DNA of 37,228 nucleotides from assembly GCA_016936535.1 (NCBI GenBank), contig JAFGXP010000029.1, positions 1 through 37,228 of the forward strand, read 5' to 3'. The DNA comes from Thiotrichales bacterium (GTDB lineage Bacteria; Pseudomonadota; Gammaproteobacteria; Thiomicrospirales; Thiomicrospiraceae). Of this stretch, positions 1 through 5,188 are shown piece after piece. Positions within the stretch are counted from its first letter, which is position 1. Each line of letters starts with the position of its first letter. The position numbers and the translations under genes were made by a program. The notes beneath the pieces are model-generated. The model was not told the origin of the DNA. It saw nothing but the letters and a program-made list of their open reading frames with translations, and made no database searches.

Positions 1-338
1 GACGTATAAATTCATTACCACCTTTCAAAACAAGATAATAAATCAATTAAATCAATAGCTTAATCATAAAAAAATAAGCTCATCTCTTTTTTTTATACAG
101 GTAAATAATTTATGAATATAGGCTTAGAATGCGGATCTTTCACCATTGACTTAATGCATAAACTAAAGTGCATTATGTATACACATAAGCGCATTAAAAA
201 TTCGATAACACAGACAATTCTTTATAACTTAATATAAATGGCACAAAAAATAAGTATTTTCGCTAATTGATAATAATTATTTATTGGCACATTAGATTTT
301 AATAAAGTCTCAATACTGATTCCATTTTTAACAATTGC
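1..338. other. AT-rich non-coding region with small palindromes
   Basis: No convincing gene. A hand count of bases 1-300 gives about 25% G+C, against roughly half in the genes of this window. Visible structures are a 6-bp inverted repeat AGCTTA/TAAGCT (57-62 and 75-80) followed shortly by a T run (87-94), which could be a weak terminator for a gene entering from the left; AATGCA/TGCATT (153-158 and 169-174); and TTATGT-ATAC-ACATAA (173-188), which contains the perfect palindrome TGTATACA. The last two resemble operator half-sites, but no regulator can be named. A TTGACT at 146-151 has no clear -10 partner. Confidence 0.5.
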
Positions 339-366
339 TTGACAAAAAAATTCTCAGTAGACTTAT
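339..366 (+). promoter_or_regulatory. Putative sigma-70 promoter for the 371-503 RNA
   Basis: A perfect -35 TTGACA (339-344) is followed, 16 bases on, by ACTTAT (361-366), a mediocre -10 with 3 of 6 matches. Transcription would start near 371-375, exactly where the first hairpin of the candidate RNA begins. The position agreement supports the call; the weak -10 limits it. Confidence 0.45.
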
Positions 367-370
367 CCCA

Positions 371-503
371 AGCTTAATTGAGAGAAATCTCACCTAAGTT
401 GGCTCGTTTCTGTAGTCTTTTCTTCACACTTGCACTCCCCTAAATGCAAGCCTGTAGTGCTCCTCAGTTCAAGCGCGGTAGGACCAAATACCGCGCTTTT
501 TTT
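371..503 (+). ncRNA. Candidate small RNA or attenuator leader
   Basis: A roughly 130-nt interval bounded by a promoter with a perfect -35 and an intrinsic terminator. Hairpin 1 (371-400) pairs AGCTTA with TAAGTT around an inner stem TGAGA/TCTCA closed by a GAAA tetraloop. Hairpin 2 (429-450) pairs CTTGCA with TGCAAG and exposes a C-rich loop CTCCCCTAAA. Hairpin 3 (471-498) is the terminator. Between them lie a pyrimidine-rich single-stranded stretch, a repeated CTGTAGT (410-416 and 452-458), and TCCTC at 461-465. CUCCCC and UCCUC could pair with Shine-Dalgarno sequences, as in some trans-acting small RNAs. It matches no family I recognise. It could instead be a regulated 5' leader of the gene at 558. 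Confidence 0.4.
471..503 (+). terminator. Strong intrinsic terminator
   Basis: A perfect 10-bp stem AAGCGCGGTA/TACCGCGCTT (471-480 and 489-498) closes an 8-nt loop GGACCAAA and runs into a T tract through 503. It lies 55 bases before the start codon at 558. It therefore either ends a separate small RNA or attenuates the downstream gene. It also argues against starting that gene at the in-frame ATG at 444. Confidence 0.8.
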
Positions 504-557
504 ACCCTAAACAAAGCGCAAAATAGCGTTTTTATCCTTAATTTTGTGGAGAGGGTC

Positions 558-1031
558 ATGAGTGAATCCAATCATTCTTACCGTTTTGGACGAGGCAGCG
601 ATGCCGAACATCAACAAGATCAAGCCCTGTTTAAAGAATTATTGCAGTTCCATCAACAATTGCAGCGCCAAACGGTAAAACTGCCTAATGGCATTTGTGC
701 GCAAACCACAAGCTCTAACCCTGATTTAGTCAAAGTACTGCAAGCACACGTTATTGGCATGGAGAAACGCTTTGCCAAAGACCGTGCCATCCGCTCGTGG
801 GATCCTTTATTTGCCGCTCTATTCGAGTTTAAAGATCAGATTCAAATGGAGTATCGTATGCTCGAAAATGGCGTTGAGGCCGTCCTAACCAGCGACCACG
901 AGCCAATGGTTGAGCTGATTCACGCCCATGATCTGACCTTACACGGCTTTGTGGATCGCGGCTTTGCGGCCAGCCGTGAAACCAGTCCGGTTCCAGATTG
1001 GCTACAAAATCATTTGGGACTTGTAAAATGA
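558..1031 (+). CDS. Unknown protein with two tandem 60-residue repeats
   Basis: A 157-residue protein with no signal peptide or membrane segment, probably cytoplasmic. I do not recognise a characterised family. The start is the ATG at 558, preceded by GGAGAGG (548-554); an in-frame ATG at 444 would run through a terminator and is rejected. The protein is an internal duplication. Residues 24-72 align without gaps to residues 84-132 at a constant offset of 60, sharing LF at the start, F31/F91, Q34/Q94, Q36/Q96, NG at 44-45/104-105, TS at 51-52/111-112 and AH at 63-64/123-124. Between the repeats is a conserved-looking IRSWDPLF segment (78-85). The paired histidines H64 and H124 would suit a metal or cofactor site, but that is inference. 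trxC follows 53 bases downstream on the same strand. Confidence 0.8.
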   Translation: MSESNHSYRFGRGSDAEHQQDQALFKELLQFHQQLQRQTVKLPNGICAQTTSSNPDLVKVLQAHVIGMEKRFAKDRAIRSWDPLFAALFEFKDQIQMEYRMLENGVEAVLTSDHEPMVELIHAHDLTLHGFVDRGFAASRETSPVPDWLQNHLGLVK

Positions 1032-1084
1032 CTCCGCAACCTTATATCATCCAACGCAGCTTTAGATGAATCTGGAGGGACAAA

Positions 1085-1507
1085 ATGATTGTAATGTGCC
1101 CACATTGCGGCGGATTAAACCGAATTGAGAATGGATCAGAGGCCCAGCAGGCAAAATGCGGGAAATGCAAACAGCCTCTCTTTACCGGCCAACCTGTTGA
1201 GATGAATCAACAACAATTTACACGAGCACTGCAGAAAACCGAGCAACCACTTGTAGTCGATTTCTGGGCACCTTGGTGTGGACCCTGTCGTGGTTTTGCC
1301 CCAGTGTTTAGCCAAGCCGCCAAGCAATTAGAGCCACAGGCAAGGCTTATCAAAATCAATACCGAAGTCGAGCAATCTCTGGCAGCAAGTCTGGCAATTC
1401 GCTCCATTCCAACCTTAGCGATTTTTAAACAAGGACAAGAAATTGCCCGCATCTCTGGCGCAATGGACTTGAACAACTTCACCCGCTGGGTTAAACAGCA
1501 TATTTAG
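1085..1507 (+). CDS. trxC: Thioredoxin 2
   Basis: A 140-residue cytoplasmic thiol-disulfide oxidoreductase that reduces protein disulfides, usually recharged by thioredoxin reductase. The N-terminal zinc ribbon is visible as CPHC (residues 5-8) and CGKC (25-28), which separates TrxC from TrxA. The thioredoxin fold carries the active site WCGPC (64-68) and the usual cis-proline segment SIPT. The length matches E. coli TrxC (139 residues). The ATG at 1085 has a good Shine-Dalgarno GGAGGG (1074-1079). It sits between the repeat protein and a small membrane protein in a tight plus-strand row, likely co-transcribed. TrxC is often part of oxidative stress responses; no such regulatory site is visible here. 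Confidence 0.95.
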   Translation: MIVMCPHCGGLNRIENGSEAQQAKCGKCKQPLFTGQPVEMNQQQFTRALQKTEQPLVVDFWAPWCGPCRGFAPVFSQAAKQLEPQARLIKINTEVEQSLAASLAIRSIPTLAIFKQGQEIARISGAMDLNNFTRWVKQHI

Positions 1508-1519
1508 AAAGGAAGCATC

Positions 1520-1759
1520 ATGGAACTGGGGTCAGAACAACACAAACGGCTTTTGCGCATGAGCATCATGAAGGTGGCGTGGAAGACGGCCTCAATTGGC
1601 CTGTTTTTTGGCTTTCTGTTGATTATTCCCAGTCTGATTCGCGATAACCCCTTGGTGAATGGCCTCGCCTTGGCGGGTTATGGATTGATGCTGAGCTTTA
1701 TCGGTTATGCGCTCTATATCGCTTGGCGTAAATACCAAAAAATCTTTAAAACCTTTTAA
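1520..1759 (+). CDS. Small two-helix membrane protein, unknown function
   Basis: A 79-residue protein with a basic N-terminus (about 1-25), two hydrophobic segments (about 26-40 and 47-67), and a basic C-terminal tail ending in KYQKIFKTF. This fits a small inner-membrane hairpin protein. The ATG at 1520 has AAAGGAAG just upstream and lies 12 bases after the trxC stop, so it probably shares the trxC transcript. Its last 14 bases overlap the 3' end of the convergent batD-like gene. Function unknown. Confidence 0.75.
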   Translation: MELGSEQHKRLLRMSIMKVAWKTASIGLFFGFLLIIPSLIRDNPLVNGLALAGYGLMLSFIGYALYIAWRKYQKIFKTF

Positions 1760-3230
1760 ACCGCTGTCGCCCTCTCAGTCGCTGCCAAAGGGCAAGCAGC
1801 TTGTGTCCTTCGCGTGCAAATTGGTGAGAATCAAATCGAATTGTGCGCGTATGCTCTTGTAAAAGACTCAATAACGCTTGGCTGTCTTTTGGTGGCGCCG
1901 GCGCATAAAGCGCGCGGTAAATTTGCTGTGCCAATTCTTCTGAAATACCCAACGCCTTTTGCCACTGTTGCCAATTCTGGATGGGCGGTTGCCCTAACCA
2001 CTCTGCCGTTAACTGCCATAGTTGACGCTGCCCTCGCGAAATCTGACCCGTGCTTAGCAACTGAATCACCCGATATCGTTGCCAGTAAAATCGTCCAAGC
2101 ACCCAAACAGTAAAGCTCAAAAGCCCGCCCAGAAAAAAAATCAATAACCAAAAGAGCCCGGCTTGCCAAGGGGCATAAGTCCAGATGGTTGGCCCGGGCA
2201 AAGACCTAACGTCAACCTTGCCGCTTTCTGGATCAAAAAACCGCCAGGACCAACTGGGCAAAACCACTTGACCAGATTGACCTAGCCGAATTGGAATTTG
2301 AATACGCCAACCCCCCTGATTATCGACATCTTGCTCAATGGTTGGCGCAAACCATTCCACCTCTTCCGTGCGCGGCAGCTGCGCCAGAAGTGCGCGTAAA
2401 GCGCTTTGTGCTTCAATCGGGGCCATTTGCACACCTTGCAGTTGCCACTGCCAAATTCCAACCGCCCCAACCGGCAACCAACTGGGCGGAGCAGTTTGCT
2501 GCCATTTAATCTGTCCAATTAAGGGATTGGGCACAATAAACTCCGGTAAAGGCTCCAGCCAAACTGTTTGCGGCCTGTCAAAAAATTTCCAGACCTTTGA
2601 CTGCTCGGAACGCACTTCCAAAACCGGCGAATAAAGCGTCAAACGCTGCGGAACGCGCTCTGAAGTGACCGACAAATCGGTCGCAAACGTGTGTGGCACA
2701 CGCAAAACCCCTTGCAACTCGCCAGCCAATAGCGCGGGGAGCGTTTCAGGCTGACGTAAGCGTTCAGGATTGGTTTGCCAAGGATTGGCCACAAACGACT
2801 GCATCTGCACTCGCCAGTCAGGCTGACTAAGCTGAACCTGAGCTTGCCAAAACCCTTGTTGTTGCGGATACATCCGCTGCGGCATCTTCGCCTGCCATTG
2901 CACTTTGATGTTTGGATTGTCGAGTACGCGCACATGACTGCCGACAAAATCACCGCCTGCAGCCAATGAAAAAACCCCACTTTGATAGGGATAAAGATAG
3001 ATCGCTGCCTGATTGCGCTGGTTGGAATGCAGCTCTAACACAAATTCTTTAGCCCATTCCTGAACGGGCAGCTGCGCCAAATGGCTGTCTAAGGACTCCC
3101 CAGGCTCACTGATCAGACGGACAATCAACGGCTCGCCTAAAAATACTTGGTCGCTGGATAGTTTGACGGTAGCGGCTTGAAGCGGTAGCTGAAACAGAAC
3201 CATGCACAATATCAACAATCTTTTTACCAT
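1746..3230 (-). CDS. BatD-like (oxygen-tolerance) membrane protein, operon A
   Basis: A 494-residue envelope protein and last gene of the first MoxR/Bat-type operon. It has a signal peptide (residues 1-19, ending LQAA), a long periplasmic beta-rich region, one membrane helix (about 355-378), and a cytoplasmic tail rich in Trp, Gln and Arg. This is the BatD topology. Its assigned role is a partner of the VWA proteins encoded upstream; biochemistry in this family is sparse. The start ATG (3230) overlaps the stop of the VWA/TPR gene by seven bases (ATGGTAA), a junction mirrored in operon B. It is shorter than the operon B counterpart (570 residues), mainly in the periplasmic part. Confidence 0.85.
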   Translation of the reverse strand: MVKRLLILCMVLFQLPLQAATVKLSSDQVFLGEPLIVRLISEPGESLDSHLAQLPVQEWAKEFVLELHSNQRNQAAIYLYPYQSGVFSLAAGGDFVGSHVRVLDNPNIKVQWQAKMPQRMYPQQQGFWQAQVQLSQPDWRVQMQSFVANPWQTNPERLRQPETLPALLAGELQGVLRVPHTFATDLSVTSERVPQRLTLYSPVLEVRSEQSKVWKFFDRPQTVWLEPLPEFIVPNPLIGQIKWQQTAPPSWLPVGAVGIWQWQLQGVQMAPIEAQSALRALLAQLPRTEEVEWFAPTIEQDVDNQGGWRIQIPIRLGQSGQVVLPSWSWRFFDPESGKVDVRSLPGPTIWTYAPWQAGLFWLLIFFLGGLLSFTVWVLGRFYWQRYRVIQLLSTGQISRGQRQLWQLTAEWLGQPPIQNWQQWQKALGISEELAQQIYRALYAPAPPKDSQALLSLLQEHTRTIRFDSHQFAREGHKLLALWQRLRGRQRFKRF

Positions 3231-5188
3231 GGTTGAATTCCCGGTATTTCATGAGCGGTTTTTTGTTCGGCATGGAACCCAGCCTCGGCTTCAAAAAGGC
3301 GTTTGAGCAGACGCTGTTGTTGCGAATCAAGATTCGCAACCTCTGCAGCAAACGCTTCGGCATTCTGCAGCTGACGTCGTTGCGCCTGAATCTGTTGTGC
3401 CGAACCACCATCCCCTTGATTTGCGCTTAAGACAAAATCGGTCGATTCGGTTGGCAGCCTATAGAAAACCGAATCACTCTGAGACGGTAATGGTGGTTTT
3501 TCTCCACTGCGATTGCCGCCCAGCGCATCACCATCCGACCCAAAACCTGGCTCATCACTGTCCGATGGTGAAGGTTTACGGGTGCCATAAAACGCGTCTT
3601 CTAAGCCTTCGCCCTGCCCTTGAGACTTGCCCTTGCCATCTTCACCCTGCTGCATCTGCTGGGCTTGCTCGGCACGCAGTGCCAATAATTGTTTTTGCGC
3701 CAAAGCTTGGGCGAGCTGTAGATTCTGCTCGGCTTGCGGATAAGGATTTTGATAGAGCAATGCCTGTTGATACGCCTCAACGGCCATAACGCCCAATTGC
3801 GCACGCAAGTAACTGTTACCTAAATTAAAGAGCGCCTCACTTCGCGGCCGATCCGCATCGGCCAACCAAGCGGCTTGTCGGAAATAGCGCACTGCAGCAG
3901 GGTAGTCTTCTGCTTTATAAGCCGAAGCCCCGGCACCAAACCAGAGCCGATAGACAGTTGGATCGGTTCCCATTTCGGCCGCAAGGCCCACATAAGCCTG
4001 TTGTGCATCTACATACGCCTGCTGTTGATAAAGCGTAAACGCCTCTTGTTCGGTTTGCGCAGCAAACACCGACGAGCTCAGTAAAATCATTGCCATTGCC
4101 AAAACCAATATCCCTACCCAATGGGTAACCCATGCCGACGCCAAAAACAAAATGCTTAACGCAATAAACCAAGGACCTAAATCCAGCCATTGCCAAGCCT
4201 GGGCAGTGGTTTGTTGGGTTTGGGAAAGCTGGCGAAGGTCTTTGAGCGGTTGCTGTAAAACGCTTAGATTGCCATCGCTATGCCAATAGAATCCAGACGG
4301 GCTCTGCTGTGCGAGCTGCTGCAAACTGCTCTGTTGCAAAGCGACCGAAACCGGCAGTCCATTATGATGGAGCACGCCTGAAGCGTGATTTTTATCCGGA
4401 ATGGGTTGTGGCTGGAGAGAACCAAAACCCAACACCCAAAGTTGACGTAAAGGGGTTTTTAGCCAATCTTTCCAGGGTAAACTTGCTATCTCCGCAGCGA
4501 CCTCGACTGGCTGTAAAAAAGGCTCTGCGCCGTCACTGAGTAACACAATGGCTTGAGCCCGATTGTGTTCCTTACCTTGTGCCGTTAAAGAGTTTTGCTC
4601 CAAATAGTGCAAGGCACGAATCATAGCTGGCTCCAACCATGAGCCTTCTAGAGGAAGAAAGCCGGGCGAAACCTGCGTTAAGTCCATTTCAATCAATGAC
4701 TTATCAAACGATAGAGGGCTGACCAAATGTGCACTGCCAGCAAACACCCATAAACCGAGACGATCTTGGGGCTGGAGGGTTCGCGCCAAACTTTGCGCCA
4801 AACGCTGAGCGCTTTCAAAACGACTTTGCTCACCCAAAAAGGCACCGCCATCTCGCGCCTGCATGGAACGCGAAACATCTAATATCAGCAATACATCGAC
4901 ACCATCTTGTAATTGAGCCTGCTCGCCTTGCTGATAGATTTTTGGGCCAGCAAGCGCAATCACTAAACAAATCCAAGCGCAAAACCAAGCCCATAACGGA
5001 AACCAATGTCCAAACTGTTTGACTGAAACCGGCGCCTGCCCCAAGCGCAAAAGCGGCCATAAATGGGCATCAGCATAGGCTTGTTGGGCTTGCTTTTGTC
5101 GCAGACGACGCAGCCAAATCAGCAAAAGTGGCAGTGGAAGCGCCCACAGCCAAATGGGCGCGCGCCACATCCATTCATCCCAAACCAT
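3224..5188 (-). CDS. VWA-TPR membrane protein (BatB/BatC-like fusion), operon A
   Basis: A 654-residue protein. Two N-terminal membrane helices (about 11-26 and 62-80) lead to a VWA domain with metal-site motif DVSRS (104-108) and a later LLSDGAE; the expected Thr position appears to be Ser in LEGSWLEPAM. Further helices come near 325-355. A TPR segment (about 375-500) follows, then a Gly/Ser/Asp-rich acidic linker and a C-terminal helix. The VWA part should bind Mg2+ and a ligand at the inner-membrane face, with the TPRs offering a docking surface. The start is the ATG at 5188 in a TGATG overlap with the upstream stop, preceded by CAGGAG; a longer in-frame reading to 5323 lies inside the upstream gene and is rejected. 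Confidence 0.88.
   Translation of the reverse strand: MVWDEWMWRAPIWLWALPLPLLLIWLRRLRQKQAQQAYADAHLWPLLRLGQAPVSVKQFGHWFPLWAWFCAWICLVIALAGPKIYQQGEQAQLQDGVDVLLILDVSRSMQARDGGAFLGEQSRFESAQRLAQSLARTLQPQDRLGLWVFAGSAHLVSPLSFDKSLIEMDLTQVSPGFLPLEGSWLEPAMIRALHYLEQNSLTAQGKEHNRAQAIVLLSDGAEPFLQPVEVAAEIASLPWKDWLKTPLRQLWVLGFGSLQPQPIPDKNHASGVLHHNGLPVSVALQQSSLQQLAQQSPSGFYWHSDGNLSVLQQPLKDLRQLSQTQQTTAQAWQWLDLGPWFIALSILFLASAWVTHWVGILVLAMAMILLSSSVFAAQTEQEAFTLYQQQAYVDAQQAYVGLAAEMGTDPTVYRLWFGAGASAYKAEDYPAAVRYFRQAAWLADADRPRSEALFNLGNSYLRAQLGVMAVEAYQQALLYQNPYPQAEQNLQLAQALAQKQLLALRAEQAQQMQQGEDGKGKSQGQGEGLEDAFYGTRKPSPSDSDEPGFGSDGDALGGNRSGEKPPLPSQSDSVFYRLPTESTDFVLSANQGDGGSAQQIQAQRRQLQNAEAFAAEVANLDSQQQRLLKRLFEAEAGFHAEQKTAHEIPGIQPW

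Follow-up and report, generated by a model that had tools for sequence, protein, structure and literature searches.

The window analysed here is the whole 37,228-nucleotide contig JAFGXP010000029.1 (contig C46) of a Thiotrichales bacterium with a genome assembly of 2.12 Mb (97.5% complete; G000 below). Near the beginning of the contig, upstream of a gene for a 157-residue protein and of trxC, a promoter, a series of short hairpins and an intrinsic terminator are packed into a compact unit (Table 1). Positions ~370-503 very probably encode a stand-alone regulatory RNA, which several genera of sulfur oxidisers have in common, and not an attenuator of the genes that follow, and the sequence comparisons make it likely that the product is a trans-acting small RNA (sRNA) that has its own promoter, is driven by a response regulator and represses the cbb3 oxidase and some other genes by pairing with Shine-Dalgarno sequences.

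Table 1 Features of the sRNA locus and of the genes behind it, in window positions
Feature	Position	Strand	Basis or remark
Tandem direct repeats, 11-bp period	299..325	+	TTAAT 299-303, TCTCAAT 308-314, degenerate third copy 319-325
-35 element TTGCTT	335..340	+	TTG 17 bp upstream of the -10 in 29/31 aligned promoters
-10 element TAGACT (consensus TAAACT)	358..363	+	found at the expected place in 31 promoters
Small RNA, ~134 nt	370..503	+	ends predicted from the -10 (5′) and the T tract (3′)
5′ hairpin	371..400	+	fold and paired changes
Middle hairpin	401-417		weak in the window
Hairpin CTTGCA/TGCAAG, CUCCCC in loop	429..450	+	fold; C-rich-loop hairpins in many relatives by eye
Unpaired recognition motif UGCUCCUCAG	458..467	+	GCTCCTCA invariant in 22/22 aligned rows
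Intrinsic terminator, 10-bp stem and T tract	471..503	+	stem 471-498, T to 503
Downstream gene, 157 aa	558..1031	+	outside the RNA unit; no Pfam or NCBIfam match
trxC (thioredoxin 2)	1085..1507	+	NCBIfam TrxC equivalog above cut-off

A covariance model of the unit matches the window at 371-503 with an E-value of 2.7e-12, the window's row being one of the training rows, and finds a single copy in the window's own genome. The model, the folds and the pair counts given below use 22 rows, which are the 24 syntenic rows minus the degenerate ones of genomes G018 and G003. The fold of positions 371-510 beats 198 of 200 dinucleotide shuffles (z -2.58). Taken by itself, the terminator pattern is no rarer than expected by chance (7 found vs 5.6 expected in positions 1-4000) and an automated promoter scan of the window does not list the sRNA promoter; the unit is taken as real because it is conserved. 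Both the terminator and the exposed C-rich motifs that a first-pass annotation had pointed out are present, with CUCCCC at 435-440 in the hairpin loop CUCCCCUAAA and the second motif in the linker before the terminator. The same annotation had described three stacked hairpins, of which the 5′ hairpin and the terminator hold, but the one at 401-417 is weak and a better one stands at 429-450; between groups the central hairpins vary, often showing UCCCC or CCUCCUCAG by eye. Its repeated CTGTAGT (410-416 and 452-458) is not a conserved feature, being absent from the other 21 rows, and of the 22 rows only the window's and those of two near relatives have the shorter TGTAG twice. Rfam 15 yields no riboswitch in the window, nor any other match at gathering score over its whole length, and the best hit of a permissive search of positions 300-560 lies on the opposite strand, with 17 bits where the cut-off is 64.

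The promoter is conserved as well, although not quite where it had been proposed. A perfect TTGACA does exist at 339-344, but an alignment of 31 promoters (G018 and the contig-edge locus of G004 excluded) rules it out as the conserved -35 element and places the conserved TTG 4 bp away. The alignment was anchored on TA[AGT]ACT, which makes the invariance of the -10 element one of construction. Directly upstream of the -35 element lie repeats with the consensus TTAA/CTCAAT/CTTCAA, in which several positions are invariant or nearly so across the 31 promoters and most spacer positions are variable. The joint conservation of the -35 element and the upstream repeats in 31 loci is what a trans-acting sRNA with a promoter of its own would display, the activity of the promoter being predicted. 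Repeats of the 11-bp type beside a -35 element are typical of OmpR/PhoB-family activators, and those found here presumably resemble PmrA/QseB-type boxes; the putative response-regulator site is probably formed by positions 299-325. A genome-wide search for the repeat returned 12 to 26 matches per genome vs 2 to 12 for a backward control, the excess being large in some genomes (21 vs 2 in G001, 24 vs 3 in G017) and nil in that of the window (12 vs 12).

All 24 genus genomes that have the downstream gene carry the unit upstream of it, in degenerate form in G018 and G003. The motif GCTCCTCA is changed in one group outside the syntenic set. Mean fold z over the 22 relatives is -5.4, and the part preceding CUCCUCA has a mean of -3.8, with values below -1 in 21 of 22. 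The expectation that the stems would be preserved in relatives by compensating changes was borne out: both sides have changed in 10 of the 20 counted pairs (six of ten in the terminator stem, four of ten in the first hairpin), against a shuffle mean of 4.0, and none of 500 shuffles reaches 10. Overall 94.1% of the cells are paired, compared with 29.9-47.5% when the pairing is slid, in an alignment that is not structure-fitted and with first-hairpin pairs chosen from one row, which favours the unslid version; the fraction is 99.1% in the terminator stem and 90.9% and 86.4% in the two helices of the first hairpin. No ATG-started open reading frame longer than 5 residues is closed inside any of the 22 rows.

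Within the genus 29 of 32 genomes match the model with a best hit below 1e-3 each, 22 of them as training rows and seven as new finds, and within the family matches at E<=0.01 occur in 38 of 62 genomes and in all seven genera, nine lying outside the genus, some of them doubtful. In a draw of 369 genomes of the class the only two matches at E<=0.001 belong to the genus, in a search with stricter filters and threshold that missed the family member G071, which carries the unit. Weak hits without CUCCUCAG (G009b, G027b, G025b and G075) were treated as chance. By the simpler criterion of CTCCTCA plus a T tract at most 330 bases upstream of the gene, which shuffled sequence satisfies in 6 of 2000 cases, the unit is carried by 23 of 40 named loci, from Thiomicrorhabdus, Hydrogenovibrio, Thiomicrospira, Sulfurivirga and metagenome-assembled genomes (MAGs) labelled Thiotrichales, Piscirickettsiaceae or Gammaproteobacteria. 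The 17 loci negative by this criterion, one of which had no upstream sequence, comprise the Halothiobacillus and Campylobacterota homologues, two Gammaproteobacteria MAGs, Acidithiobacillus and Thiomicrospira sp. ALE5. A possible further copy with TGCTCCTCAG and a terminator was seen in G060 (L077), where the neighbours are an acetylglutamate-kinase-like gene and a membrane-protein gene by eye.

In the proposed mechanism, the RNA would be an sRNA of the Thiomicrorhabdus-Hydrogenovibrio-Thiomicrospira-Sulfurivirga group that acts in trans by base pairing. It would be transcribed from its own sigma-70-type promoter, probably with a response regulator on the tandem 11-bp repeats beside the -35 element, and would end at the intrinsic terminator, presenting a C-rich hairpin loop and the unpaired, strongly conserved UGCUCCUCA(G) before the terminator. 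This linker is predicted to pair with Shine-Dalgarno regions and so to block the entry of ribosomes, possibly with the help of Hfq, the gene for which is present in the window's genome (PF17209, E 5.6e-29). As its principal target we predict the cbb3 oxidase operon, namely ccoO, with UGAGGAGCA in the loop of a start-site hairpin, and ccoP, with CUGAGGAG; the case is weaker for a diheme cytochrome and a FadL-like porin.

The complementarity of the conserved unpaired motif to mRNA start sites is evident from several searches. The pattern CTGAGGAG occurs 2-9 bases before an ATG 40 times in seven genomes vs 8 times for the backward pattern, the 40 including non-starts and one sRNA copy itself, and the recurring orthologues are ccoP in five genomes, the diheme cytochrome in four and the FadL-like gene in two. 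CcoP scores above its NCBIfam cut-off; the PdsA-like cytochrome and the FadL-like protein score below theirs. The pattern precedes ccoP in 20 of 29 genus genomes (27 starts were scored automatically, 18 of them with the pattern, and those of G018 and G029 were read by eye) and the pdsA-like gene in 10 of the 11 genomes carrying it (eight flagged automatically, with G009 and G010 read by eye from upstream starts). The FadL-like gene has it in G000 and G019, and in the former, at C45:29783, the match covers 8 bases with a duplex energy of -16.5 kcal/mol. Among the window's own genes no strong target was predicted (17 start sites, best -12.8).

The ccoO gene, recognised as FixO by Pfam, emerged from the scoring of 150 start sites. 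All 24 bases of its start site, TGAGTTGAGGAGCACAAACTCATG, are the same in 26 of 29 genus genomes. The box TGAGGAGCA, to which UGCUCCUCA in the sRNA is exactly complementary, is found in 28 of 29; identity to the consensus is 0.97 over the last 24 bases vs 0.59 upstream. The box is also kept in two other genera and is absent from five alphaproteobacterial ccoO start sites. The site folds as a hairpin of -5.2 to -6.9 kcal/mol in three sequences, with UGAGGAGCA and the Shine-Dalgarno sequence in the loop. This hairpin (L248:442-465 and equivalents), the flank of which is variable, is itself a candidate RNA element.

When the sRNA linker of a genome was ranked against all start sites called in the stretch holding the operon, ccoO and ccoP came third and twelfth of 349 in G019, and in two genomes of other genera ccoP came first and ccoO second, of 138 start sites in G033 and of 353 in G061. 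In G061 no ccoO was present in the first 200-kb stretch (176 start sites) nor in 300 kb overall, but a later 400-kb stretch, selected by the expected gene order, held the gene; in G071 the 300 kb examined held no ccoO. Of 150 linkers with CTCC kept and the flanks shuffled, 3, 0 and 0 do as well as the real one in G019, G033 and G061, respectively.

A number of results weigh against the cbb3 oxidase as the target. If the kept core is extended to CTCCTC, linkers with shuffled flanks equal the real one in 31, 10 and 1 of 150 cases in the same three genomes, where GAGGAG Shine-Dalgarno sequences stand at 12 of 349, 2 of 138 and 6 of 353 start sites; much of the rank signal is therefore that of a rare Shine-Dalgarno sequence common to ccoO and ccoP, and a contribution of the flanks is clear in G061 alone, with G033 a possible second case. 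The cco start sites are moreover homologous across genera, so that the rank tests are not independent. The ccoP gene is without CTGAGGAG in 9 of 29 genomes, and the pdsA-like gene is present in only 11 of 32. Although 29 of the 32 genus genomes have ccoP, none was found in that of the window at E<=1e-60, and because of this the targets there may differ from the cbb3 oxidase operon; the absence could be a loss or an assembly gap. A search with the 9-mer CTGAGGAGC gave 46 matches in seven genomes, 45 of which were read, and no recurrent start site, the sole plausible one being that of a 94-residue frame starting with GTG in G009; ccoO was missed by this search because it has TTGAGGAGC.

The joint variation of box and seed also falls short of what such pairing might lead one to expect. 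An exact CUCCUCA copy is lacking in 6 of the 29 ccoO genomes (G001, G003, G010, G016, G028 and G029), and in all of these but G003 the ccoO box is intact. The seeds of G016 and G029 could still pair via G-U (-17.3 and -16.4 kcal/mol), but the motif CCCCUAAG of G001, shared by G028, is unable to pair (-3.7) and no sRNA was found in G010; the genomes of G001, G010 and G029 are 79-86% complete. In G003 (L255), which alone among the genus genomes has an altered ccoO box, the box reads TCAGGAGTA and the degenerate syntenic RNA (TTGCTTATTAGG) has lost CUCCUCAG, leaving a duplex of -7.3 kcal/mol vs -17.6 to -20.2 kcal/mol for three other box-linker pairs; the search there for a further copy whose seed would match was that made with the model. 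Co-variation of box and seed thus amounts to one suggestive case and not to a pattern.

Among the other explanations, that of a transcription attenuator or leader, which would control the downstream gene and trxC by read-through, had been put forward in the first-pass annotation alongside a free RNA. A strong terminator immediately 5′ of a gene that is the same in 24 genomes would fit such a role, as would the window's own locus, one of the 8 of 24 without a -10-like hexamer after the terminator. However, a TANAAT or TATACT hexamer lies between terminator and gene in the other 16 loci (mononucleotide shuffles give a mean of 6.3 and a maximum of 12 of 24), no ATG-started leader frame of more than 5 residues is closed inside the 22 rows, and the model still finds the unit in six of the eight genus genomes that lack the downstream gene (G001, G011, G016, G022, G028 and G029). 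They hold nine copies (L045-L053), two each in three of the genomes. Three copies have a cation-efflux gene on their 5′ side and a trxC-like gene immediately on their 3′ side; a fourth follows what looks by eye like a fragment of a cation-efflux gene and precedes a different gene; one lies elsewhere; and four stand before a convergent gene, which is a lipid A acyltransferase by Pfam in G022 and was judged by eye in the other three. The fixed link to a co-directional downstream gene that attenuation calls for is thus missing, and the attenuator reading, discarded on account of the copies that lack the gene or face convergent genes, is very improbable. The conserved unit, the kept pairing, these same copies and the complementarity to ccoO and ccoP speak for the free sRNA with C-rich motifs directed at Shine-Dalgarno sequences that had been the other proposal. 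One type of the sRNA among the nine copies has CCCCTAAG instead of CTCCTCAG, which suggests that its targets have diverged. That the RNA titrates a protein or another RNA, its Shine-Dalgarno complementarity being incidental, would agree with the C-rich motifs seen by eye in several loops of many members, but the ccoO match reaches beyond the Shine-Dalgarno core and we give this option next to no credence.

Two further explanations retain the free sRNA and its chemistry. Its real targets might lie elsewhere, among outer-membrane proteins or other cytochromes, with the ccoO hairpin kept for reasons of its own. The window's genome does keep the motif though no ccoP was detected in it, the FadL-like gene offers a site there and in G019, and the ccoO box persists where the RNA motif differs (G001, G028) or no RNA was found (G010); against this, in two genera that played no part in choosing them ccoO and ccoP head the ranking, and we consider such a displacement of targets unlikely. 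Alternatively, the RNA and its targets might be as proposed and the pairing might raise expression, for instance if it protects or remodels the ccoN-ccoO junction and the ccoO start hairpin, an element of a kind that partners can open. The complementary box is, however, the Shine-Dalgarno loop and not the stem arms, so that pairing would cover the ribosome site, and activation seems quite unlikely compared with the repression of the cbb3 oxidase favoured here.

The predicted mode of action has counterparts in other bacteria. The CcsR 'cuckoo' RNAs of Rhodobacter display CU-rich anti-Shine-Dalgarno loops; they are alphaproteobacterial and have neighbours other than those of the window sRNA. Expression of LhrC1-5 of Listeria depends on the two-component system LisRK via a conserved promoter region, and its mode of action is similar to that predicted here, whereas the organism differs and the target studied is lapB, an adhesin (PMC4132741). 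RoxS/RsaE likewise pairs C-rich regions with Shine-Dalgarno sequences (ppnKB) and is induced through ResDE, but belongs to Bacilli and staphylococci and has other targets (PMC8216469); the window has no Rfam match to either of the two. The respiratory chain is the likeness to NrrF of Neisseria, which represses sdhCDAB and petABC, the latter through contact with its 5′ untranslated region; in contrast, NrrF is Fur-controlled and acts on succinate dehydrogenase and cytochrome bc1 and not on cbb3 (PMC5586341). In the part of the literature covered by our search, outside which most subscription journals lie, neither a small RNA of these sulfur-oxidiser genera nor small-RNA control of a cbb3 oxidase was found.

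The gene behind the terminator, for which a repeat protein had been proposed without support from either family database, is found in 24 of 32 genus genomes, and, judged by it, Thiomicrorhabdus species (NCBI order Thiotrichales, family Piscirickettsiaceae) are the closest relatives that have a name. Its protein has 56 invariant columns among 14 members, and homologues occur in sulfur-oxidising Gammaproteobacteria and Campylobacterota MAGs. By a simple motif test, at least 16 of the 24 genus loci have a trxC motif 3′ of the gene.

More tentatively, and with somewhat less confidence than doubt, the RNA may be viewed as a lineage-specific sRNA dedicated to the cbb3 oxidase of chemolithoautotrophic sulfur oxidisers, with the ccoO hairpin as a docking site displayed in a loop and a two-component system that sets respiratory capacity post-transcriptionally. 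If this is true, the RNA would represent a family absent from Rfam 15, and vent and sediment autotrophs would possess a specific, testable layer of control over their terminal oxidase, with the pairing site in ccoO.
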